A stretch of DNA of 64,000 nt, taken from NCBI RefSeq assembly GCF_022965805.1, contig NC_133118.1, forward strand, positions 6,975,057 through 7,039,056, read 5' to 3'. The DNA comes from Primulina eburnea. Its lineage: Eukaryota > Streptophyta > Magnoliopsida > Lamiales > Gesneriaceae. Both the position numbers and the translations under genes were made by a program. This document shows, piece after piece, positions 11,188 to 46,065 of the stretch. Position 1 is the stretch's first letter, and every line of letters begins with the position of its first letter. The notes beneath the pieces are model-generated. The model did no database searches, had not been told where the DNA came from, and was given only the letters and a program-made list of their open reading frames with translations.

Positions 11188-11925
11188 TTATTCTCTATTA
11201 GGTAGCAATACGTCTTTGAAAACCACGTTTTTTGTGAATACTCCAGATTGACGCTCTAAATTCCAATCTTTTACCAGAATTTTGGTAGAATTTTGTGAGA
11301 CTCCTCTTGAAAGTGCCACATATAGCTGACCATGGCTGAACACATGGTTACGCAAAAATATGCCAATATTTGGGATTGTTTGACCTTGTGCTTTGTTTAT
11401 TGTCAGATCAAAACTAAGCCTTATGGGAAACTGTCGACGTGTCAACTCAAATGGTAATCCAGAATTATCTTCACTTTTCAAGGGCATTCTATGTAGAAAG
11501 AATCTGGTACCGTTGTGAGGACCTGTTATGATCTCAGCATCTATAAAATTTCTACCAAGACTGCGGCATATTAATCTTGTTCCATTGCATAGTCCAAGTT
11601 CGGGAGCAACATTTCTCAAGAGAATGATAGGACTTCCTACTTTCAATATGATTTTATGTGGTAGCAAACCACTTGGACAAAGGGAATTCAAAAATTCTTC
11701 TTGAAAGAGGTTGTGATTGTCGTCTTCTACACTATCCCAAGAGGTATACTCTTTTTCCTCTCCAGGAAACCTCATAATGGGCATTTGATTAATATTGTCG
11801 ACATTAACATTTTTTGGTGTGATGATGGCTCTATCAACCATATAGTTTTCATCGTTAACATGATTTATCATGTTAGGAAAAACAGAATCAATCAAAATCT
11901 GAATTGATTGTTCTCCCTTGCTCAA
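11188..11925 (-). pseudogene. Helitron helicase (Pif1 family), C-terminal fragment
   Basis: About 245 residues match the tail of the SF1/Pif1-like helicase of plant Helitron Rep-helicases. Visible blocks are LKVGSPIILLRNVAPELGLC, CNGTRLICRSLG, the motif V-like FDLTINKAQGQT, and the motif VI-like QLYVALSRGVS with its conserved Arg. The Walker A and B motifs and the Rep nickase domain are missing, so it cannot act as a helicase. It lies at the 3' end of the Helitron and in the same orientation, as expected. Upstream (11926-12460) I see only AT-rich DNA without the preceding domains. It is not a host PIF1 gene, because it is bounded by Helitron termini. Confidence 0.85.
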
Positions 11926-22886: not shown

Positions 22887-23053
22887 TAAACTTTGTTGCT
22901 TTTTATTCCCAGGTCCCGGGCACTTTGTAAAGTTTTTCCTTGATGGAATATAGGCGCTTGTTTCCGATTTTGTTTCCTTTCATGCCATAGTAAATTTTTC
23001 GTGATTTTGATTGTCGAGCGAGGTACGATTCCTTTGAAGTTTTGTTATGTTCG

Positions 23054-23480
23054 GGGCACGGGTCCACCGGGCCAGGGTACGGATCCCTGGTCTTTAAAAT
23101 ACAACCGGGGAACGGGTCCACCGGGCTAGGGTACGGATCCCTGGTCTTTAAAATACAACCGGGGTACGGGTCCACCGGGCCAGGGTACGGATCCCTGGTC
23201 TTTAGAATACAACCGGGGTACGGGTCCACCGAGCCAGGGTACGGATCCCTGGTCTTTAAAATAGAACCGGGGTACGGGTCCACCGGGCCAGGGTACGGAT
23301 CCCTGGTCTTTAAAATACAACCGGGGTACGGGTCCACCGGGCCAGGGTACGGATCCCTGGTCTTTAAAATATAACCGGGGTACGGGTCCACCGGTCCAGG
23401 GTACGGATCCATGGTCTTTAAAATATAACCGGGGTACGGGTCCACCGGGCCAGGGTACGGATCCCTGGTCTTTAAAAATA
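23054..23480. repeat. 54-bp minisatellite (8 copies) in the Tat element 3' region
   Basis: GGGTCCACCGGGC recurs at 23060, 23114, 23168, 23222, 23276, 23330, 23384 and 23438, an exact 54-base period with few substitutions. Each unit also carries GGTACGGATCCCTGG. Because 54 is divisible by three, both strands stay open through it (for example PYPGPVDPYPG on the minus strand), but it lies after the integrase stop and is probably untranslated. Plant Tat-type elements are known to carry variable tandem repeats here that can seed satellite DNA. Confidence 0.95.
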
Positions 23481-23529
23481 TTCCTTTGAATAACCTCTTC
23501 ATTTGATGCGATAATAGATACAAATGTTT

Positions 23530-33221: not shown

Positions 33222-34172
33222 GGTGCATCATTTATGATTTAGTCAGTTTCAGATCAATACAAGCTTACCTAAGTGGATTTCAGCTATGCAAAACGATACA
33301 AAAGCTATTGTACGATCAAGGTGCAATAATGGACGTTTCAACAACACTTAAAGACAAAAATTTCCAGCATAGACGTCGGAAAATTCGAGACACGGATCTC
33401 AAAAAACGCATTCAAGCTGCAACAGATACAATTATTAAGTCTCACTGTACAATCAGTTTCCCGCCTATAAATTGAATATCATTGAAGACCAATATACAAC
33501 AAGTGTGTGAAGATTCAGAGAAAAAAAGGCACGCATATTGCATATCAACTTACAAGAAGCAATCATTCCAGAGGGAACACTTCATCGTGTTATCAGCTTA
33601 TATTAGAAGCATAATTCCCTCAGTGTGTAAAAACACTTTCATGTTGTAATCAGAGATCAGTTCTAACGCGCACACACACCACCACTCAAAAATAGTCTTG
33701 CACAAAGACATTAAACTTGTGTATGTAGTCTTTGACACATAGACATTAAACAAGTGTTGACTGGAAGGTGCTACCTTTAATCTAGTTTAGGAGTTTAGTT
33801 AGGCAGTTGGTTAAGTCCTAAGCTGAGTGAGTTTGTACAAATCAATTGTATAAATCAAAGTCTTCTAGTGGATTCTACCCGAGGTGGTAGAAGGGGTGAC
33901 ATAGGAGCAGTTGAAGTCTCCGAACATCCATAAACATATCTTGTGTATTTAATTATTTAACTATTGTTTTCAAACTGATTTGATCAGTTAGAGCATCCGT
34001 CAGTTCAGTTTTCACCATAAATGAACTGATATATGTCACAACTGATTCCTTTATTTTCAGTTATTCAGTTACACATGATATAAAATATATCAGTGTTTCT
34101 TAATGAATGATTCTTCGAGTGTTTTCCGCTGGATTTCATATCAAACTCTATTTAATTCATCGGTGTAAACAT
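33222..34172 (+). repeat. Ty1/copia (SIRE-like) LTR fragment
   Basis: Non-coding DNA with a TATA box (CCTATAAATTG, near 33462), stretches such as GTGACATAGGAGCAGTTGAAGT and CTCCGAACATCCATAAA, and a long pyrimidine-rich end. These parallel the LTR at 46980-47060 (GGTGACATACGAG, CTCCGAATATCCATAAA), so both are LTRs of one copia group. No internal copia sequence adjoins, so it is a solo or partial LTR. The Athila-type element was inserted at 34172. Confidence 0.6.
34168..34172. repeat. Target site duplication AACAT (left) of the Athila-type element
   Basis: AACAT precedes the 5' LTR and recurs at 45405-45409 after the 3' LTR. Confidence 0.92.
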
Positions 34173-35558
34173 TGATAAACATAAAAATTGTACATTAATT
34201 AAATGTTTTATAATATAAATATATAGTTTTTGTTTTATTAAATTTTTAAATATTATATGTTTTATAATAAATTGTATAAAATATAAGTTGTTGTGTAATT
34301 ATAAGTTTTTACTATTTTTACAGGTTCGATAAAACAAGAATAACCTTGGCGTTGCAAATGGGATTAAGATGATTCTTGGACCTGTAGAAAGTTGATGTTA
34401 ATATCTACAATATTGGTGGCAAGCATGAGATAAAAATCCTCTCACAATTGGGATCAAATTAAGCAACAATTAAAGTTACCGAAGGAGTGGCAGTTTTACC
34501 ATGCTCTAGTATTTTGACCATATCTCTCAAACTACTTGGTCAAATATTCTGAAAAAAATACCACAACTAGACAACTCAATTATCCACATGTTTCATTTTA
34601 TGTGAAGAAGAAAATTCGGAGAAGATGCTTGTCAAAAGTGATGTGCAATATAATATTAATTTCTTGGAACACCAATGAAGACTTATGTGTAAAAAATAAT
34701 ATTTTATTTATGGTTGTCTCCCCAAATTTGGCTATAAATAGGGGTGCATTGTAATGTATTGAGATATCCCTCATTCTATGAACAAATCTTTGAGTTCATA
34801 ATATTTCTCTCTATATTTTTCTTTTATTTCTTCATTTAAATATAATTAGCATGTTAATTTCATATTCAAAGTTTTACACTTTGAATAATGAATAGCTAAC
34901 TTCCTAAAGTTGAGATGATAAGGTGAAGCTCTTGGCATGATAATAAGGTTATTATAAGGTAAGAATCTATGTTTTATATTATTTAATCATTATTTATTGT
35001 TTATGTTATATTTATTTCTTTAAGCATTTTTATACCCTACTTATAAGTGGGAGTTTTGATTTATTGTTGCTATATGTTACACTAAATTCTTGGAACCATT
35101 TAAATGTTAGTTTGGTTTTACCAACCATTTAAAGTGGGAACCTTGATTTAGTGTTTACAAATATATATAGCACAATAAATACTTGACCACATTTATAAGT
35201 TTTGATATATATTATGTACTTATAAGATTATAATTTATAACATAATATAAATATGATTATTTAATATATTGGAACCATTTTATTAAGTGGATTTCAATAT
35301 TGTTCGTTAATGTTAACTTTATTAAAATACCAAGAGTGGATCCTTTAATCTCAACTACTTAAATTTAAATTTGAACAATTAAAATTTACCCATTAAAGAT
35401 TCAATTAAAATTAAAAAGAAACAAAATCAAAAACAAAAAGACATTGTAGTGGACTTGTAATTACCTTAGCTTCCCTGTGGATACGATATTCGGACTCACC
35501 GAATTATACTACTTGTGGACAACCTGCTCTTGGGAGTGCAACAATCAAAGTCGCAACA
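34173..35558 (+). repeat. 5' LTR of the Athila-type element (1,386 bp)
   Basis: TGATAAACATAAAAATTG...GTCGCAACA. It matches 43835-45404 almost base for base except that the 92-bp unit near 35091-35170 is present once here and three times there. Confidence 0.95.
34733..34741 (+). promoter_or_regulatory. TATA box in the Athila-type 5' LTR
   Basis: TATAAATAG in the context TTTGGCTATAAATAGGGGTG, a strong plant core promoter sequence. The start of the genomic RNA is expected about 30 bases downstream. The 3' LTR copy is at 44395-44403. Confidence 0.8.
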
Positions 35559-35564
35559 AGTTTT

Positions 35565-35582
35565 TGGCGCCGTTGCCGGGGA
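35565..35582 (+). other. Primer-binding site (tRNA-Asp)
   Basis: TGGCGCCGTTGCCGGGGA begins six bases after the 5' LTR and is complementary to the 3' end of plant Asp-tRNA, the usual primer of Athila elements. Confidence 0.92.
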
Positions 35583-35751
35583 AGTATAATTTAATTTCAA
35601 GTCTATTTAATATTGTTTAAAGTTTATTTTTCTTTTTATTGCTTTTGTGTGTTTTTTTTTTTTTTTCTTTTTGTTTTGCATTTGCATGAGCATTTGGTCA
35701 CGTACACTTAGTGGTCGACTCATTCGAAATAACCCTTTATTTTTACAAAAC

Positions 35752-38700
35752 ATGGCGGAAGAACCCATCCAAGAAAATGAAGATGAAATTCAATCTCAAC
35801 ATGATCATGATAGACGAAGAACACTTAGAGATCACATGAATCCTACACGTACTAGTGCACCTTCATGTCTAGTTTTTCCCCCTGATGCATCTCATTTCAA
35901 TTTTAAGCCTGGTATTATCCAACTTTTACCCAACTTTCATGGCTTAGATTCTGAAAATCCATACATGCATTTACGAGAGTTTGAAGAAGTGTGCAACACA
36001 TATAATGATCTAAATTGTAGCATGAACACCATTCGCCTTAAGCTTTTTCCTTTTTCTTTAAAAGATAAAGCTAAAACTTGGCTACAAAATCTTAGATCGG
36101 GATCCATTCGAACTTGGGATGAATTGCAACAACAATTTTTGAAAAAGTTTTTTCCATCTCATAGAACAAATTCTTTCAAAAGGCAAATCATCACTTTCAC
36201 TCAAAAACAAGGAGAAACTTTTTATCAGTGTTGGGATAGATACAAAGAATTGCTTAATCTTTGTCCACATCATGGTTTTGAAATTTGGAGAGTTGTTTCT
36301 CAATTTTATGAAGGCTTAACACCTAAAGATAGGCAAATGGTTGAATTTATGTGTAATGGAACATTTGAAGATAAAGATCCGAACGAGGCAATTGAGTATC
36401 TCGATTCATTAGCTGAAAATGCTCAAAATTGGGACACTATAGGTACAATCGAACCATCAAACAAGATTCAATCTCCTACATCTGGTGGAGGTATGTACAC
36501 TCTCAAAGATGAACATGATCTTCAAGCTAGATTTACCTCTTTGGCAAGAAAAGTTGAGGCACTTGAATTGAAAAAGAATGGTCAATTAAAATCTGTTCAA
36601 GAAATTGTGTGTCACATCTGTGATACAAGTGATCATTTTACAAAAGATTGTCCCACTTTGCCCTCTTTTAAAGAATGTCTCCATGAGCAAGCCAATGTTT
36701 TGAACAATTTCAAAAGGCCAAATTTTGAACCATTTTCTCAAAATTACAATCCAGGTTGGCGAAATCATCCAAATTTTAGTTGGAGGAATGATAATGCTGC
36801 ACAATTTCCGCAACCACATTTTCAAAATCAACAAAATTTTCAAAATTATGCACCTTATGTTCCTCCGCCGAAAAGAAATTTGGAAGATACATTGAATTCT
36901 TTCATTGCAAAGCAAGAGTCTATCAATACTCAAACTGCTCAAACCATGACAGACTTGAAAGATACTCTTGCTAAATTTGCATCTGCACTTAATGTTCATG
37001 AAAAAGGTAAATTTCCTTCACAACCTCTGCCTAATCCCAAGGATCATCATACACAAATTGGAACTTCTGGAACTCAACCGATGGATCAGGTAAAATCTGT
37101 TATTACCCTTCGAAGTGGTAAGGTTGTGGAAAAATCCATTCTTGAACCTTGTGAAGATGATGATAAATCAACTCCAAAGGGTAAGGAAGTGGAACCCATA
37201 ACTTGCGAAGAGGAGGTTCAACAGACAGTGTCACCACCATTCCCTCATGCATTGAAAAATACAAAAAAATCAAATTTGAATTCTGATATATATGATATTT
37301 TTAAACAAGTAAAAGTTAATATTCCTTTATTAGATGCAATAAAACAGGTACCATCATATGCCAAATTTTTGAAAGACTTGTGCACTGTGAAAAGAAAATT
37401 GAATGTGAAAAAGAAAGCATTTTTAGCCGAACAAGTAAGTGCAATCATTCAAAATAATAATGCTTTGAAATACAAAGACCCTGGTTGTCCTACTATTTCG
37501 TGTATTATTGGAGAACGAAAGATTAAAAAAGCCTTGCTTGACCTTGGAGCTAGTGTGAATTTACTTCCATATTCAGTTTATCAAGAACTCAATCTAGGCG
37601 AGTTAAAACCTACTTCGGTAACACTTTTACTTGCTGATAGATCTGTTAAAGTGCCAAGAGGTATGGTAGAAGACGTGTTGGTCCAAGTTGATAACTTTGT
37701 ATATCCTGTCGATTTCATAGTTTTAGATACACAACCTATTGAAGCTTGTAATGCAATTCCTGTAATTTTAGGTCGTCCATTTTTAGCAACTTCTAATGCT
37801 CTTATAAATTGCAGGAATGGAATAATGAAGTTGTCATTTGGTAACATGACCTTGGAGCTCAATGTTTTTAATCTTTGTAAGCAACCACATGACAAAGGAG
37901 ATGAAAGTGAAGATGAAAATCTTATTGAAACTCTTGTGGAAGAAAACATTCAAGAAGGGAGTACTCGTGATCAATTAGATATTTGTTCAATTGAAACTGT
38001 TAAAGAAAATATTGAAATTGATCTTGACGATTTTTTCAGGTATCACTCGTTACCAGGATCAGAGAAAGAATTTGATGAAAAATATGAGAACAAAGACGAA
38101 CCACCAGTATTGGAGTTAAAACCCTTGCCAGAAGAATTGAAGTATGCATTTCTTGGAGAAGATGAAACATATCCGGTGGTAATTTCTTCCAAACTCTCAA
38201 GTAATCAAGAAGGTAAATTAGTTGATATGCTTAAAAGACATAAAAATGCAATTGGTTGGACACTAAAAGATCTTAAGGGCATTAATCCACTAATTTGCAC
38301 ACACAAAATTCACTTAGAAGAAAATGCAAAAACATCTCAACAACCACAAAGGAGATTAAATCCACACATGAAAGATGTTGTGAAAACTGAAGTTCTCAAA
38401 CTACTTGATGTTGGAATTATCTACCCTATTTCTGATAGTAAGTGGGTAAGCCCAACACAAGTAGTTCCAAAAAAATCTGGCATCACAGTGATAAAAAATG
38501 AAAAAGGTGAATTGTTAACAAGTCGAGTCCCATCTAGTTGGCGGATGTGTATTGATTATAGAAAATTAAATGACGCCACTAGAAAAGATCATTTTCCATT
38601 ACCATTTTTGGATCAAATTTTAGAAAGAGTAGCAGGTCATCCCTACTACTGTTTTCTTGACGGATATTCAGGCTATTATCAAATTCCCATTGCACTCGAA

Positions 38701-40998
38701 GATCAAGAAAAAACTACATTCACATGTCCTTTTGGAACATTTGCATTCAGAAGGATGCCATTTGGTTTATGCAATCCCCCAGCAACATTTCAAAGATGTA
38801 TGCTAAGCATTTTCTGCGACATGGTTGAAAATTGTTTGGAAATTTTTATGGATGATTTAACTGTTTTTGGGAATACATTTGATAATTGTCTTGAAAATTT
38901 GGAAAAAGTTTTAAAAAGATGCGAGGAAAAAGGTCTTATTTTAAATTGGGAAAAATGTCATTACATGATTACTTCTGGAATTGTTTTGGGACATGTCGTG
39001 TCATCTCATGGAATTGAAGTCGATAAAGCAAAAGTTGATGTCATTGCCAATTTACCCCCTCCAAAAACCATTAAAGAAATTCGCTCATTTTTGGGACATG
39101 CTGGATTTTATAGGAGGTTTATAAAGGACTTTAGTTTAATCTCTAAACCCATTTGTAACCTCTTAACAAAAGACAGTGCATTTGAGTGGACTCAAGAATG
39201 TCAAAATGCTTTTGATAAAATCATTCTACATTTAACATCAGCTCCTATCATGCAACCTCCTGATTGGTCTTTACCATTTGAAATCATGTGCGATGCGAGT
39301 GATTATGCAGTCGGTGCAGTATTGGGTCAAAGAAGAAACGGTAAGCCTTATGTGATATATTATGCAAGTAGAACTTTAAACAATGCTCAAATGAATTACT
39401 CCACAACTGAAAAAGAGCTACTTGCTGTAATATTTGCATTAGATAAATTTCGTTCTTATTTGATTGGATCAACAACTATCGTGTTTACTGATCATTCTGC
39501 TATTAGATATTTGTTGACCAAACAGGATGCAAAGCCACGACTGATACGATGGATTTTGTTGCTCCAAGAATTTGACATTGTAATCAAAGATAAAAAAGGA
39601 ACCGAGAATGTCGTAGCCGATCATTTATCGAGACTAGTAACAGGATCATCTTTTGAAATGACACCAATTAACGATAATTTTCCTGATGAACATCTATTTT
39701 CAGTTACTACTACACCTTGGTTTGCTAACATAGTAAATTTTCTTGTGACAGGAAAAATGCCACCGCAATGGAGTTCCCAAGATAAAAGAAAATTTTTGAA
39801 TGAGGTAAAAAACTTTTATTGGGATGATCCGTATCTGTTCAAGTATTGTCCGGATCAAATTTTTCGACGTTGCATACCCGACAATGAGGTAAGTAGTGTC
39901 ATTAAATTTTGTCATTCAGAAGCATGCGGGGGACATTTTTCTTCAAAGAAAACAGCTGCAAAAATCTTGCAGTGTGGATTTTATTGGCCCACTTTGTTTA
40001 AAGACACCCACGAAATCTGCAAGATCTGTGAAAATTGTCAAAAATTGGGTGCGATTTCAAAAAGAAACATGATGCCTTTGAATCCTATCATTGAAATTGA
40101 AATATTTGATTGTTGGGGAATAGATTTTATGGGACCTTTTCCACCGTCGTTTGGATACTTGTATATTTTAGTTGCAGTTGATTATGTTTCCAAATGGATA
40201 GAGGCAATTCCATGTCGAACAAATGATCATAAAATCGTCATCAAATTTTTGAAAGAAAATATTTTTAGTAGATTCGGAATTCCTCGAGCTATGATAAGTG
40301 ATGGGGGAACTCACTTTGTTAATAAACCATTTGCTTCATTAATGAAAAAATATGGTATTACTCACAAAGTAACAACTCCTTATCATCCTCAAACAAATGG
40401 ACAAGTTGAATTAGCTAATAGGGAGATAAAGCAAATTTTGGAAAAAACTGTTAACTCAAATAGAAAAGACTGGTCTCTGCGACTTAATGATGCACTGTGG
40501 GCATATCGAAGAGCTTTTAAAACATCATTGAATATGTCTCCCTATAGGTTGGTTTATGGAAAACATTGTCATTTGCCTGTGGAATTGGAACATAAAGCTT
40601 ATTGGGCGATAAAAACTTTAAATTCAAGCATGGATGATGCCAACAAATTGCGTAAATTGCAACTTAATGAACTTGATGAACTCAGAAATGATGCGTATGA
40701 GAATTCAAGGATTTATAAAGCAAAAATCAAATCATTTCATGATAAAACAATTCTTAGAAAATCTTTTGAGATTGGTAAAAAAGTTTTGCTTTATAATTCT
40801 CGACTTCACATATTCCCAGGAAAATTACGATCAAGATGGACAGGCCCATATGTTATAAAGCATGTGTATCCTTATGGAGCTGTGGATATTGAAAATCCTA
40901 AAAATGGTGATGTTTTTAAAGTGAATGGACAAAGGCTTAAACCATTTTTGGAAAATGAAATCTTTCAAGAAGAGTTTATTTCCCTTTCTGATCCTTGA
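35752..40998 (+). CDS. Intact gag-pol polyprotein (Athila-type)
   Basis: A single 1,748-residue frame from [11 protein letters not shown] chose this Met over the upstream one at 35647, which opens into a poly-T stretch. Domain order: capsid (about 50-230, [20 protein letters not shown]); CCHC knuckle [14 protein letters not shown] (about 287-300); aspartic protease with [12 protein letters not shown] (Asp near 596); RT with [19 protein letters not shown] and FMDDL (about 1034); RNase H with [10 protein letters not shown] (about 1181); integrase with an HHCC finger (about 1387-1430) and a DDE core, Asp in GIDFMGPFP (about 1458), Asp in ISDGGTHF, Glu in GQVELANRE, the last two exactly 35 residues apart. 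It ends in a GPY-type domain without a chromodomain. It would make the capsid and all enzymes for copying and integration. Wording around [14 protein letters not shown] and WSSQDKRKF is Athila-like. No stop or frameshift is seen. Confidence 0.97.
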
Positions 40999-41029
40999 TT
41001 TTTTTTTTGTGTTGCATTTGATTATTGTT

Positions 41030-41043
41030 TGTTTTTATTTCAG
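41030..41043 (+). promoter_or_regulatory. Possible splice acceptor upstream of accessory gene 1
   Basis: TTTTTATTTCAG follows directly after pol, 140 bases before the ATG at 41183. It could create a spliced mRNA for the first accessory gene, as with env-like genes of related elements. A seven-codon upstream frame (ATG at 41075) lies between. Confidence 0.4.
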
Positions 41044-41182
41044 GTTTTCTTAATCTTTTTATTTTCCCGGTTAAATGGCGGATAACGGTACTCCGTGACT
41101 CTCATAGTCGGTTAAATCAGTTTCCCACAATTGCTGATACAAAAATTTAAAAAAAAAAAAAATCATTTCTTTTCTTTTCAAA

Positions 41183-41728
41183 ATGGATGAAATTCTCTCA
41201 AAAATTTGTAAATATTTTCCCTCTGTTTCTGAAAATGTTCTAAGAAAAATTTATGCAGGAAGGTGTGAAAGATTGAGATTACTAATGCAAAAAAGAATTC
41301 CAGAAGATATTCGTCTTGTAATAGAAGCTAAGGTCCGATTAGGAGGAGAAGTTCAACAATCATTGCTTATTCGGTATTTGCCTGGATTAGGAAAAAGCAC
41401 TTATGCGAAAAAACGAAGGGCCAAAAGTTTAGGGGTTTGTCATAAGTGTGCAAGATGGACTTGTGACAAACGATGCAGATCTTTGGGATGTGTTTCCAAT
41501 AACAGAGAAGATAAAATTGATTTCATTAAGAATGGGCTGAGTAAGGAGTCTTTAGATAACATCTTATTGACTCTTGAGACGCATTCTAGTGGACATGTGC
41601 ATATTGAACTTCTCCGTTTATGGAAACAATTTCAAGATGAGCGTCATAGTCTTGGGAATCTGACTAAAAAAGACCCTGTTTGCCAATTTATAAGAAAATT
41701 GGATGGGAAGCATATCCTCGACTCATAG
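41183..41728 (+). CDS. Accessory gene 1: Cys-rich basic protein resembling carlavirus nucleic-acid-binding proteins
   Basis: A 181-residue intact frame. The centre (69-85) is a basic run, GKSTYAKKRRAKSLG, followed by a putative zinc finger C86-x2-C89-x8-C98-x4-C103 (with C94 inside), then a FIKNG element near 114-118. The basic SxYAxxRRA block just before a C-x2-C...C-x4-C finger and the later FI-x2-G are the layout of the Cys-rich nucleic-acid-binding proteins of carlaviruses and relatives, which affect silencing and host transcription. The N-terminal 65 residues are helical with Cys9 and Cys28. It occupies the env-like position after pol, 184 bases from the gag-pol stop, and has no signal peptide or membrane segment, so it is not an envelope protein. 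Base composition matches gag-pol. The viral relationship is inferred from motif layout only. Confidence 0.6.
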   Translation: MDEILSKICKYFPSVSENVLRKIYAGRCERLRLLMQKRIPEDIRLVIEAKVRLGGEVQQSLLIRYLPGLGKSTYAKKRRAKSLGVCHKCARWTCDKRCRSLGCVSNNREDKIDFIKNGLSKESLDNILLTLETHSSGHVHIELLRLWKQFQDERHSLGNLTKKDPVCQFIRKLDGKHILDS

Positions 41729-41900
41729 AAGGCGTTGAAGCCGTTTCTGGACGTAAAACCAGAGGAAAATTGTGAGCCACAATCACACTACTGTTTATAA
41801 GCATGTGTGTCATTATTTTTTTACTATTTATTCTGTTTAAAGCTGTGACCCATAGTTTTGTCATGATAACATATTACCCCTATAAAATCTCTCATCTTTC

Positions 41901-41915
41901 TTTCTACTTTCGCAG
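41901..41915 (+). promoter_or_regulatory. Probable splice acceptor before the LOG gene
   Basis: TTTCTACTTTCGCAG, preceded by more pyrimidines (CTCATCTTTC), is a good plant 3' splice site. Only 22 purine-rich bases without another ATG separate it from the LOG start at 41938, as expected for a spliced subgenomic mRNA. The donor is not identified. Confidence 0.6.
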
Positions 41916-41937
41916 AAAAAAAAAGGAAAGTAAAAAC

Positions 41938-42576
41938 ATGACTGGATCCTCTGCACAAACATTGAAAAATATTTGTGTATTTTGTGGGTCGAGTCCTGGA
42001 AAAAATGAAGTGTTTGTAGAAGCAGCGAATAATCTTGGAAAGATATTGGCTGAGAGAAAAATTCACTTGGTATATGGGGGAGGTAATATTGGGTTAATGG
42101 GATCTGTTTCAACATCTGCTCATCTTGGAGGTAGTCAGGTATTGGGTATTATTCCTATAGCTTTAGCTAAAGGAAATATTACAGGTGTTACGATTGGGGA
42201 GGAATTAAAAGTTTCTTCTATGTATGAAAGAATCACTCAAATGATTGAAAATTCTGATGCTTTTATCGCACTACCAGGTGGTTTTGGTACATTAGAAGAA
42301 ATTTTTCACACTGTTTCTTGGGCACAACTTAATATCCATAATAAACCCGTGGGCTTGTTGAATATCAATAATTATTATGACAGTTTGTTGACATTTCTTG
42401 ATAAAGCTGTGGAACAGAATTTCATTTCAGAAAATTCACGACGGATGCTCATCTGTGCTTCGACTGCCGATCAATTAATTGATGATTTGGAAGCTTTTGT
42501 TCATAAGCCTGATCCGATGATAACAAAGATCAATTGGTCGCAATCAAGCAGTAAGAAAAGGAAGTTGGATCATTGA
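41938..42576 (+). CDS. LOG-like: Accessory gene 2: LONELY GUY-type cytokinin riboside 5'-monophosphate phosphoribohydrolase
   Basis: A 212-residue protein, the normal length of plant LOG enzymes. The start is the Met at 41938; an upstream in-frame Met (41803) would add 45 hydrophobic residues that look like untranslated DNA before a splice acceptor. Motifs: ICVFCGSSPG (12-21), VYGGGNIGLMG (45-55), Arg98 in SMYERI, and the lysine-decarboxylase-like signature PGGFGTLEE (113-121) with Glu121, then ASTADQLIDDLEAF near the end. LOG releases active cytokinin bases from their nucleotides in the cytosol or nucleus. The tail KKRKL (206-210) could be a nuclear signal. Plant LOG genes have several introns; this one has none, so it was probably acquired as mRNA. 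The usual Lys after the Arg is Ile, the only oddity in a core motif. The frame has no lesion in a young element, so activity is plausible but untested. Confidence 0.92.
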   Translation: MTGSSAQTLKNICVFCGSSPGKNEVFVEAANNLGKILAERKIHLVYGGGNIGLMGSVSTSAHLGGSQVLGIIPIALAKGNITGVTIGEELKVSSMYERITQMIENSDAFIALPGGFGTLEEIFHTVSWAQLNIHNKPVGLLNINNYYDSLLTFLDKAVEQNFISENSRRMLICASTADQLIDDLEAFVHKPDPMITKINWSQSSSKKRKLDH

Positions 42577-42708
42577 TTCAAAAGTCGTGGATTGGTTTGC
42601 GTTTGTTTCAGTTTGTTATCTTCAATAAAGTTCCAGGTGATATCTCTTTCATTATGTACTCTTTATTAATAGCTATTTTGACATTAGGGACAATGTCATA
42701 TTCTGATT

Positions 42709-42718
42709 GGGGGGAGAA
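42709..42718 (+). other. Internal polypurine tract
   Basis: GGGGGGAGAA downstream of the accessory genes. A second, internal plus-strand primer of this type is seen in related elements. The one next to the LTR is at 43827. Confidence 0.6.
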
Positions 42719-43826
42719 CACATATAAAAAAAAAAAAAAAAAACAAATTTAAAAAAAAATTAAATATTATTTTAAAATAAAACCATGTTTATTGTTTGTA
42801 CCTTAGTAATTTTTTGCAAAAATGTCATACATTACATATTTGAAAGATTTAAATTAGAACATGCATTAATCTATTTAAGAATGTTTAAATTTTATTTGAA
42901 AAAAGGTCATTTTTAATATTCTGATCAATATAAAAATATGATTTATGAAATCTTTTTGAGTGATTAACCATTGTGATAAAATTAGGTAGTAAAGTATATG
43001 GCCCAAGATATACCTTATAAGAGTGCCTAAAATTTTTGAACTCACACATATTTTGTGAGTGAGTGGAGAGGACTGAGAAAACAGCTTTCGAGCCTTTATT
43101 GATCATGAGAGAGACTATCTATTGTTTAGATCTTGAGTTCTTATTTTGAAAAAAAAAATATATATTTCCTGAAAAAAAAAAGAAAAAAAAAGAAAAATAC
43201 AAAAAGAAAGATGTTGAAGATCTATGTAATTTTTAAGTTATATGCTGCGACCCATTTTTCTCTCATAAGAATAAAAAAAATAAAAAAAATAAAAAAAAAG
43301 AAAGAGAGAAATACATTGTACAATTAAATAAATATGTGGTCAAAAAGCATAAACTTAGTCTGATTCCATGATGTAAAAAAAAAAAAAAAAAAAATCAGGA
43401 AAAAAAAATATAATAAGAACAACTGGATTTTAAATCAATTGATTTTCTATCTTTTGATTAGTTTGGCTCGTTTGTCTGTCTGCATTCTGTAAACCATTTT
43501 TCTGAGCATTTATCTGTATTCCAACTCCATGAGAGAAATCGTTGCCATAAATTGAAACATTTATTAACCTGTGAGGATATGGAGTTGAGACTCTTACTAG
43601 GAATTTCTGAAGGCCGTGTACATTTAACTACCTAAAATAAGCTTTGAATTAATCATCTCAAATTATTTCATAAATTATAATTATGATGATCTTGATATAA
43701 CTTTGACAGTTTTCAAATTTTATTTAAACACTTAGATAGTTCTGATTACATTTCTATTTAAATTAATCAATATGTTTTGTATTGCTATTAACGCTTAAAT
43801 TGCTAGGGACTAGCAATAAGCTGGTT

Positions 43827-43834
43827 GGGAGGTG
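43827..43834 (+). other. Polypurine tract next to the 3' LTR
   Basis: GGGAGGTG immediately before the LTR start TGATAAAC. Confidence 0.7.
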
Positions 43835-45404
43835 TGATAAACATAAAAATTGTACATTAATTAAATGTTTTATAATATAAATATATAGTTTTTGTTTTAT
43901 TAAATTTTTAAATATTATATGTTTTATAATAAATTGTATAAAATATAAGTTGTTGTGTAATTATAAGTTTTTACTATTTTTACAGGTTCGATAAAACAAG
44001 AATAACCTTGGCGTTGCAAATGGGATTAAGATGATTCTTGGACCTGTAGAAAGTTGATGTTAATATCTACAATATTGGTGGCAAGCATGAGATAAAAATC
44101 CTCTCACAATTGGGATCAAATTAAGCAACAATTAAAGTTACCGAAGGAGTGGCAGTTTTACCATGCTCTAGTATTTTGACCATATCTCTCAAACTACTTG
44201 GTCAAATATTCTGAAAAAAATACCACAACTAGACAACTCAATTATCCACATGTTTCATTTTATGTGAAGAAGAAAATTCGGAGAAGATGCTTGTCAAAAG
44301 TGATGTGCAATATAATATTAATTTCTTGGAACACCAATGAAGACTTATGTGTAAAAAATAATATTTTATTTATGGTTGTCTCCCCAAATTTGGCTATAAA
44401 TAGGGGTGCATTGTAATGTATTGAGATATCCCTCATTCTATGAACAAATCTTTGAGTTCATAATATTTCTCTCTATATTTTTCTTTTATTTCTTCATTTA
44501 AATATAATTAGCATGTTAATTTCATATTCAAAGTTTTACACTTTGAATAATGAATAGCTAACTTCCTAAAGTTGAGATGATAAGGTGAAGCTCTTGGCAT
44601 GATAATAAGGTTATTATAAGGTAAGAATCTATGTTTTATATTATTTAATCATTATTTATTGTTTATGTTATATTTATTTCTTTAAGCATTTTTATACCCT
44701 ACTTATAAGTGGGAGTTTTGATTTATTGTTGCTATATGTTACACTAAATTCTTGGAACCATTTAAATGTTAGTTTGGTATTACCAACCATTTAAAATGGA
44801 TGCCTTGAGTTATTATATATAAATATATTATAATATTAAATTCTTGGAACCATTTAAATGTTAGTTTGGTTTTACCAACCATTTAACTTGGATTCCTTGA
44901 TTTATTATATATGAATATATTATAGTATTAATTTATTGGTACCATTTAAATGTTTGTTTGGTTTTACCAACCATTTAAAGTGGGAACCTTGATTTAGTGT
45001 TTACAAATATATATAGCACAATAAATACTTGACCACATTTATAAGTTTTGGTATATATTATGTACTTATAAGATTATAATTTATAACATAATATAAATAT
45101 GATTATTTAATATATTGGAACCATTTTATTAAGTGGATTTCAATATTGTTCGTTAATGTTAACTTTATTAAAATACCAAGAGTGGATCCTTTAATCTCAA
45201 CTACTTAAATTTAAATTTGAACAATTAAAATTTACCCATTAAAGATTCAATTAAAATTAAAAAGAAACAAAATCAAAAACAAAAAGACATTGTAGTGGAC
45301 TTGTAATTACCTTAGCTTCCCTGTGGATACGATATTCGGACTCACCGAATTATACTACTTGTGGACAACCTGCTCTTGGGAGTGCAACAATCAAAGTCGC
45401 AACA
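43835..45404 (+). repeat. 3' LTR of the Athila-type element (1,570 bp)
   Basis: Copy of 34173-35558, flanked by AACAT. It is longer by two 92-bp units (CTTGGAACCATTTAAATG recurs at about 44751, 44843 and 44935). Elsewhere I noticed only a G for A near 45050. Confidence 0.95.
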
Positions 45405-46065
45405 AACATTTTTAGAACACGAGCTATTGTAGCTCTTGAAGAATATTGTGTTTGAAGCACTTCAAGGTGCCCAACACACGATGCTTCACCTAAGGTTTGT
45501 CAAACCCTTGAGACAATTCTTGGTGGAGGAAAAATGGATTTATACAAAAACGGAAATCCAAAGAGAGAACAAATGTAGAGTATGAGGAAGGGTTTTGCAT
45601 GCCTGGACCATTGCATCCATACTTGATCCACAACTTTAGATTTTTTGTCAAATGAATTTATTTATTTTTAATCATAAAATAAAAATTATAAAATTTTAAT
45701 ACAGTATAATGTAAAAAAAATTTATTAAAATTTTATAGCCCATTTATTATCATAATTATTATTTATTCTTATAACACAACAATTCATATGAGACGGATAT
45801 CCGACTGAACTCATGAAAAAATATTTTTTTAAAATTTGAAAAGTATTATTTCTCGGTGTAGTTATAGAGCGAATAACCATTCTGTGAGATCGATTACTTC
45901 TTATAAAGCTCTCGAACATCTGGGAAATATAAAATAACAATATTATTACAACTAAAAATAAAATAAATATATTTCTTTGTTTATGTTGGCTAATCTATAA
46001 TTGTTTGGACATCCAAACAATAATCTCAAACTAACGAATGAGGCACACACGTTGCGTGTGTTAAG
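45405..46065. other. Spacer after the Athila-type element, with a Helitron-like end
   Basis: No gene recognised; AT-rich with short frames only. It continues the DNA into which the Athila-type element inserted. Confidence 0.5.
46031..46065 (-). other. Helitron-like 3' end remnant
   Basis: ACACACG-TTG-CGTGTGT forms a perfect 7-bp stem, inside a block (AACGAATGAGGCACACACG) that aligns with the Helitron terminus at 10366. The last bases read GTTAG on the minus strand instead of a CTRR end, so it is mutated or only related. Confidence 0.45.

Follow-up and report, generated by a model that had tools for sequence, protein, structure and literature searches.

Anatomy of the element and its accessory genes

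The window, by which we mean the entire 64,000-nucleotide stretch of Primulina eburnea DNA that was analyzed, contains a complete Ty3/gypsy LTR retrotransposon of 11.2 kb (34173-45404), flanked on both sides by AACAT, with two accessory genes, NABP for a zinc-finger protein and LOG for a member of the LOG family, between pol and the 3' LTR. Its features are as follows:

34168-34172, no strand: left target-site duplication, AACAT
34173-35558, forward strand: 5' LTR, 1386 bp, TG...CA
35565-35581, forward strand: primer-binding-site-like sequence TGGCGCCGTTGCCGGGG, 6 nt past the 5' LTR
35686-40998, forward strand: gag-pol, single open frame of 1770 aa, with Pfam matches for gag, protease, RT, RNase H and integrase
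41063-41131, forward strand: conserved block 1 in the pol-NABP interval, constrained over three divergent elements
41183-41728, forward strand: NABP, predicted zinc-finger protein of 181 aa (PF01623, PF05515)
41683-41787, forward strand: conserved block 2, overlapping the 3' end of NABP and continuing past it, with four hairpins drawn by eye
41938-42576, forward strand: LOG-family protein of 212 aa with the basic C-terminal tail KKRKLDH
43823-43834, forward strand: purine-rich tract GGTTGGGAGGTG, adjoining the 3' LTR
43835-45404, forward strand: 3' LTR, 1570 bp
45405-45409, no strand: right target-site duplication, AACAT

The LTRs, the target-site duplication, gag, and a pol region in the order protease-RT-RNase H-integrase together place the element in Ty3/gypsy. 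The gag, RT, RNase H and integrase regions score above their Pfam cut-offs, and the protease falls just under its own (23.4 bits against 24.3). We take TGGCGCCGTTGCCGGGG to be a primer-binding site of the tRNA-Asp type, which is presumably a trait of Athila elements. Searches of the 1770-aa polyprotein with Pfam (E<=0.01) recovered RT_RNaseH models only, with neither a second (aRH) RNase H nor a chromodomain. The lack of both domains is the criterion for the Athila clade (OTA non-chromovirus) in the accessible text of PMC6317226, and the element is likely to be an Athila-type Ty3/gypsy retrotransposon. The original prediction of an intact young element with matching LTRs holds for its intactness and the AACAT duplication, with a single substitution separating the LTRs; it does not hold for the LTR lengths, as a tandem repeat in the 3' LTR (44745-45016) has expanded by 184 bp relative to the 5' LTR. 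Taking roughly 7e-9 substitutions per site per year, a single difference over 1386 bp suggests that the insertion is tens of thousands of years old. Elsewhere in the window, a reverse-strand ORF with head-to-tail DPYPG-type repeats (22903-23502) adjoins another LTR element, and the product of another reverse-strand ORF (11188-11871) resembles by eye the end of a PIF1/Helitron-type helicase.

The LOG gene is a single intronless frame; the ORF list opens it at an upstream ATG at 41803, giving 257 aa, and its relatives align from the start at 41938. Its product matches the Pfam Lysine_decarbox family (PF03641, 1.1e-37, 129.6 bits, cut-off 27), TIGR00730 (2e-52, 177.5 bits, cut-off 96.35) and the structure of Arabidopsis At2g37210 (1.3e-63), which we take to be LOG3. 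An AF2 model, confident apart from both ends (pLDDT 84.8, pTM 0.82), recovers 2a33 as its best match in the PDB (E 1.9e-23, 53% identity), and plant LOGs provide the nearest structures (53% and 48% identity). The protein scores 125.2 bits against the cut-off of 300 of NF058542, the NCBI LOG equivalog model intended for bacterial and archaeal annotation; judged from Pfam, TIGR00730 and predicted fold it is a member of the LOG family, and not an equivalog as defined by NF058542. The complete intronless 212-residue frame with GGGNIGLMG, PGGFGTLEE and an Arg/Glu pair, as originally predicted, was recovered, and the Pfam, TIGR00730 and At2g37210 matches agree with it. The pair corresponds to R98 and E121, which along with E120 are invariant in all 20 aligned LOG proteins. 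LOG enzymes release active cytokinin in one step, and their Arg/Glu pair has a catalytic role, which is supported by the residue aligned to E121 being Glu in PDB entry 5zbj and Ala in 5zbk. The window PGGFGTLEE conforms to the PGGXGTXXE motif of LOGs named in PMC11593424, and of the best 120 of 7980 LOG matches 99 have an exact GGGxxGLMG and 103 an exact PGGxGTxEE. According to the sections available of PMC11593424, close LOG relatives with the same motif may yield iPR rather than iP, and hence the activity of a LOG cannot be read from its motifs.

The second accessory gene, NABP (41183-41728), had been overlooked by the original prediction. The matches of its product to viral Pfam families are modest, namely Carla_C4 (PF01623) at 2.5e-6 and 27.8 bits (gathering score 20.9) and Viral_NABP (PF05515) at 7.7e-5 and 23.2 bits, barely above the gathering score of 23.0. 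Among 373 candidate database proteins 322 are related to it at E<=0.01, and the 120 relatives listed bear precomputed PF01623 matches, with Populus, Xanthoceras, Orobanche, Acer and Rhamnella as named sources. All 18 of the aligned relatives (E<=0.01) match Carla_C4 and 17 of them Viral_NABP. A C-x2-C-x4-C-x3-C zinc finger is present in the window protein and in 104 of the 120 listed matches, and its four cysteines are invariant across the 18 aligned relatives. In the Rhamnella gene model P0205 an integrase C-terminal sequence continues, by eye, into NABP, suggesting that the gene follows pol in Rhamnella too. The predicted fold of NABP is of low confidence (pLDDT 50.7) and too poor for a structure search, and a scan of viral contigs for relatives gave 157 pattern-matching stretches, none of them confirmed. 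The available portion of PMC12172455 describes carlavirus cysteine-rich proteins as RNA silencing suppressors, and that of chrysanthemum virus B as a hyperplasia-causing transcription factor as well.

Genomic copies and phyletic relationships

The 812-Mb Primulina eburnea genome (1224 contigs) contains at least 150 near-identical LOG copies: of 1463 first-look candidates for the window LOG, 150 were scored, all of them at least 98% identical to it and 149 free of stops. The original prediction had proposed a search for further LOG-bearing copies, and besides these window-type LOGs it uncovered a second, more diverged family. This was reached with P0011, a database protein named 'LOG3-like [Primulina eburnea]' that is matched at 100% in the genome; the 150 scored out of 1384 candidates comprise 80 members of the second family (82-100% identity) and 70 of the window type (68%). 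In the second family the matched part of LOG is stop-free in 57 of the 80 and interrupted by a stop in 23 (2 of these among the best 30), which fits the expectation of an older, decaying family.

Fifty window-type loci were fetched, comprising the 30 best and 20 near the bottom of the 150, and this choice by LOG protein score favors intact LOGs. The pol end, NABP and LOG occur together in 47 of these 50 (L002 is without the pol end), making an assembly join inside the element, which the original prediction had named as grounds for rejecting it, very unlikely. A NABP sequence within 20 substitutions of that in the window is found in 48 of the 50, the exceptions being L028 and L049; when the frame was read in the forward-strand loci among the 30 best, it was broken in L011 (stop after 110 aa) and L022 (after 19). 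Thirty loci of the second family (L052-L081) were fetched, and the order pol-NABP-LOG is preserved in all eight examined. Their NABP is shortened at its C-terminal end by an insertion with a stop in 9 of the 10 loci listed, and is divided over two frames in L075 and L079. A third and divergent sequence, L051, has pol and NABP with no LOG match within its 989 bp of downstream sequence, suggesting that LOG is dispensable for some relatives. L051 (DAIEQH010000041.1) is a plant-like pol-NABP fragment lying inside a Candidatus Nomurabacteria metagenome-assembled genome, a placement that is probably due to contamination.

Phylogenetic placement of the LOG, also proposed in the original prediction, puts it on a branch apart from the sampled host LOG1/3/4 and LOG8 proteins. 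When 41 LOGs recovered with the window LOG as query (itself included) were combined in one tree with 26 host LOGs recovered with At2g37210 and At5g11950, a single branch separated the two sets with support of 100/100, and the same split is seen with a bacterial outgroup at 95/89 (20 and 15 rows), although the groups are defined by the searches that found them and the split is therefore partly a matter of sampling. The element-side branch includes the rosids Populus, Reevesia, Diplodiscus and Xanthoceras and the asterid Primulina; P0112 and P0115, which diverge first in it, may be something else. An element context is seen directly in the window family and the second family. It is less directly supported by the Xanthoceras gene model P0002, in which LOG is fused to a peptide resembling, by eye, the window gag-pol linker, and by two contigs whose lengths, 8723 (P0006/P0147) and 4511 (P0064/P0135), recur in the LOG and NABP match lists. 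The phyletic pattern suggests either a capture before the rosid/asterid split, or horizontal spread, or repeated capture from other LOGs. The database entries P0049 (LOGL10, Populus trichocarpa) and P0011 group with the element LOGs. Given that the P0011-type loci examined all lie behind pol and NABP, some annotated cytokinin genes appear to be retrotransposon genes; the 'LOG3-like' P0011 of Primulina belongs to an element family, a caution for annotation, and some poplar 'LOGL10' entries (e.g. P0049) probably belong to elements as well.

The LOGs of this branch are further distinguished by their C-terminal tails. An LxLxL ending is found in 99 of the 120 listed LOG matches (the best 120 of 7980) as against none of 120 listed host matches, and a basic cluster within the last 22 residues in 108 as against one, where the host matches were gathered with two queries, one of LOG3 and one of LOG8 type, and both lists are rich in near relatives, so that these counts are not independent. 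The window LOG has the basic cluster, KKRKLDH, without LxLxL. The basic cluster may be a nuclear signal, and LxLxL an EAR-like repression motif.

Selective constraint and conserved DNA blocks

Comparison of the two families by the Nei-Gojobori method shows LOG to be clearly constrained between them. Between the window and L052 of the second family, LOG shows dN 0.24 and dS 1.24, with a dN/dS of 0.19, and NABP and the last 175 codons of pol give 0.22 and 0.09; between the window and L051 the values are 0.25 for NABP and 0.10 for pol. As dS exceeds 1 for all three genes in the comparison with L052, and is near saturation in most comparisons, these ratios are rough. The purifying selection on LOG for which the original prediction suggested looking thus finds support in two families of the same genome.

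Within the window families, with the window as reference, changes seen once number 30 non-synonymous to 22 synonymous plus one stop in LOG, 49:14 plus two in NABP and 42:11 plus two in pol, and changes common to several copies are 9:9, 17:6 and 5:13, respectively; the NABP and pol counts omit L002, L028 and L049, the shared counts include non-synonymous changes private to the window (one in LOG, two in NABP, one in pol), and the LOG counts are biased by the choice of loci by LOG protein score. In the LOGs of the 30 second-family loci the unique changes are 30:10 plus two stops and the shared ones 6:5. Judged by the shared changes, LOG and pol are constrained among inherited variants. For NABP, the same comparisons point to constraint between families and hardly any within the window families. 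In a second window subfamily, which comprises 19 of the 20 low-ranking loci, the roughly 620 bp of non-coding sequence that follow LOG carry 21-45 differences, versus 7-16 in the 639 bp of LOG.

Blocks 1 (41063-41131) and 2 (41683-41787), on either side of the NABP reading frame and in part within it, have hardly changed across the window, the second family and L051. In the last 20 codons of NABP all identical residues are encoded by identical codons (17/17 against L051 and 19/19 against L052), as compared to 66/112 and 62/102 in the rest of the gene, and in the second family the DNA past the premature NABP stop is still strictly conserved, as would be expected if it acts as RNA. A block-2 hairpin at 41747-41762 reads CTGG-ACGTAAAA-CCAG in the window, CTGA...TCAG in L052 and CTAG...CTAG in L051, that is, with two compensatory changes and no broken pair. 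The hairpins were drawn by eye from the sequences on which they were tested, four rows of which two (the window and L031) barely differ; the pairing score of block 2 was reached by 28 of 500 shuffles, and that of block 1, in which one pair is broken in one row, by 162 of 500. Single-sequence folding of the two blocks was no better than that of shuffles (z -0.46 and -0.03). The case for RNA structure depends on conservation and this one hairpin, which with four rows is suggestive only. One frame of block 1 also gives a short peptide that is conserved, and the block might be either an RNA structure or such a peptide. An Rfam search of 40900-42800 returned two matches, each well short of its gathering score, and no counterpart of block 1 was found in the viral contigs scanned. 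Since L051 keeps both blocks with no LOG in its sequence, they are likely to serve the element more generally, with translation of the downstream ORFs, RNA export or splicing as possible roles. With respect to splicing, the acceptor at 41915 in the original prediction is kept in the window families and has no counterpart at that position in the second family, and we reject it as a general feature; a candidate acceptor-like pyrimidine-CAG is present 5' of block 1 in L051 and L052 as well as in the window.

Functional interpretation and comparison with known systems

We give about an even chance to the reading in which this young Ty3/gypsy element bears its constrained NABP and LOG genes as a host-manipulation cassette that would blunt silencing and release cytokinin. 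The structure of the element, its two genes and their order, its amplification, the separate LOG branch and the between-family constraint are the observed part of this reading. By way of mechanism, NABP and LOG would be expressed from spliced or internally initiated RNA, with one or both of the blocks beside NABP possibly aiding translation, splicing or RNA export. NABP might suppress silencing or act as a growth-promoting transcription factor, by analogy with the carlavirus proteins, and LOG is predicted from its sequence to convert iPRMP to iP, thereby releasing active cytokinin. The cassette might thus ease host silencing and push cells to divide, and the element could benefit by being expressed and inserted in dividing, germline-forming cells, given that insertions must reach the germline through meristems. 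On the side of the proteins, this reading is weakened by the paralogs that make iPR, the NF058542 shortfall, the inexact motifs in part of the listed LOG matches, and the modest profile matches and poor fold of NABP. On the side of the copies, it is weakened by L051 without LOG, the stops in second-family NABP, dS values above 1, the sampling by LOG score and the 17:6 ratio of shared changes in NABP. Extending it, a widespread lineage of plant retrotransposons might be a hormone-manipulating genomic parasite, whose NABP disarms silencing and drives growth genes and whose LOG-derived cytokinin makes meristem-like cells that transmit insertions; we offer this only as a tentative and rather doubtful generalization. 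Hormone manipulation is known from pathogens and gall formers, and would be extended to a genomic parasite if the genes work as predicted. The available text of PMC6317226 asks if the accessory genes of plant retrotransposons have any function, and two such genes with readable biochemistry, under constraint and present in at least 150 copies, make this directly testable.

The principal alternative is that LOG acts in local nucleotide chemistry, hydrolyzing nucleoside monophosphates (AMP-like or modified) or yielding cytokinin riboside, without usefully raising the level of active cytokinin. The fold is common to nucleotide hydrolases such as PpnN, and plant LOGs with the same motif can be 5'-ribonucleotide phosphohydrolases, as reported in the portion of PMC11593424 available; however, the nearest structures are those of plant LOGs and the active-site motif is intact, and we regard this alternative as unlikely, if far from negligible. 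A regulatory role is less probable still: the LOG fold could have been recruited as a nuclear regulator, its basic tail (with the EAR-like LxLxL in most listed relatives) directing it to the nucleus, where it would serve as a scaffold for corepressors and influence how the element is silenced or transcribed. The strong bias of both tail features to the listed window-search LOGs would be explained by such a role, but the window protein has the basic cluster alone, the EAR function is putative, the host matches stem from just two queries, the match lists hold many near relatives, and the conserved active site suggests that catalysis was probably kept; we consider it improbable.

That LOG and NABP are mere transduced passengers without a function for the element appears very improbable. 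Gene transduction is known for plant LTR elements (PMC7264820, in the part available), and the absence of LOG from L051 and the low constraint on NABP within the window families accord with it, but the between-family dN/dS values of both genes, the gene order common to both families in this genome, the single LOG branch spanning rosids and asterids and the stop-free state of 149 of 150 scored copies all argue to the contrary. A host LOG hit or neighbored by an insertion, or an assembly join, found nothing in its favor and can practically be dismissed, since LOG is enclosed by matching LTRs and a target-site duplication and the arrangement recurs in nearly all the window-type loci and every second-family locus examined.

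The capture of LOG by a plant Gypsy element is itself not new, contrary to the original prediction, which knew of no described retrotransposon with a LOG gene. Gypsy consensuses from Populus trichocarpa and from two species of Citrus are reported to contain a YgdH/LOG domain (PMC9289625), a finding presented there as agreeing with Steinbauerova et al. 2011 (Genetica). The elements described there share with ours a LOG-family domain inside a plant Ty3/gypsy element, but the mention is brief and gives no gene order, phylogeny, selection or partner gene; to it the present analysis adds a complete young copy, NABP, two families, dN/dS estimates, the LOG branch, the tail and the conserved blocks. 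A literature search, from which most subscription papers were out of reach, returned no report of the NABP and LOG pair or of a carlavirus-type protein in retrotransposons; the accessible parts of PMC7264820, PMC11963269 and PMC12786077 do not mention carlavirus or cytokinin, nor does that of PMC6317226 mention carlavirus or YgdH. As far as this search extends, the pairing with NABP, the order of the genes, their constraint, the existence of two families and the conserved blocks were not found in print.

Among other elements with additional ORFs, Gypsy elements of orchids, in which an additional ORF encodes an AlkB-type RNA demethylase, likewise have a captured host-type enzyme, for which the accessible sections of PMC9289625 propose an action against RNA control and describe neither hormone chemistry nor a virus-type partner. 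The env-like ORF of Athila (Wright and Voytas 2002, as cited in the available text of PMC7264820 and PMC6317226) is comparable in being a sense ORF in the interval between pol and the 3' LTR, whereas the window ORFs match NABP and LOG models, and the Athila ORF-1 family (PF03078) is not among the Pfam matches listed for the three window proteins scanned. The window NABP shares with the nucleic-acid-binding proteins of carlaviruses (PF01623, PF05515) a basic stretch and a zinc finger, and differs in its length of 181 aa, its retrotransposon context and its N- and C-terminal parts, which are conserved although they lie beyond the region matched. Finally, the element LOG has the fold and active-site motif of the plant LOG1/3/4 and LOG8 proteins (53% identity to At2g37210 in the structural alignment), but is set apart from them by its separate, long-stemmed branch, its basic and in relatives often LxLxL-bearing tail, and its intronless frame within an element.
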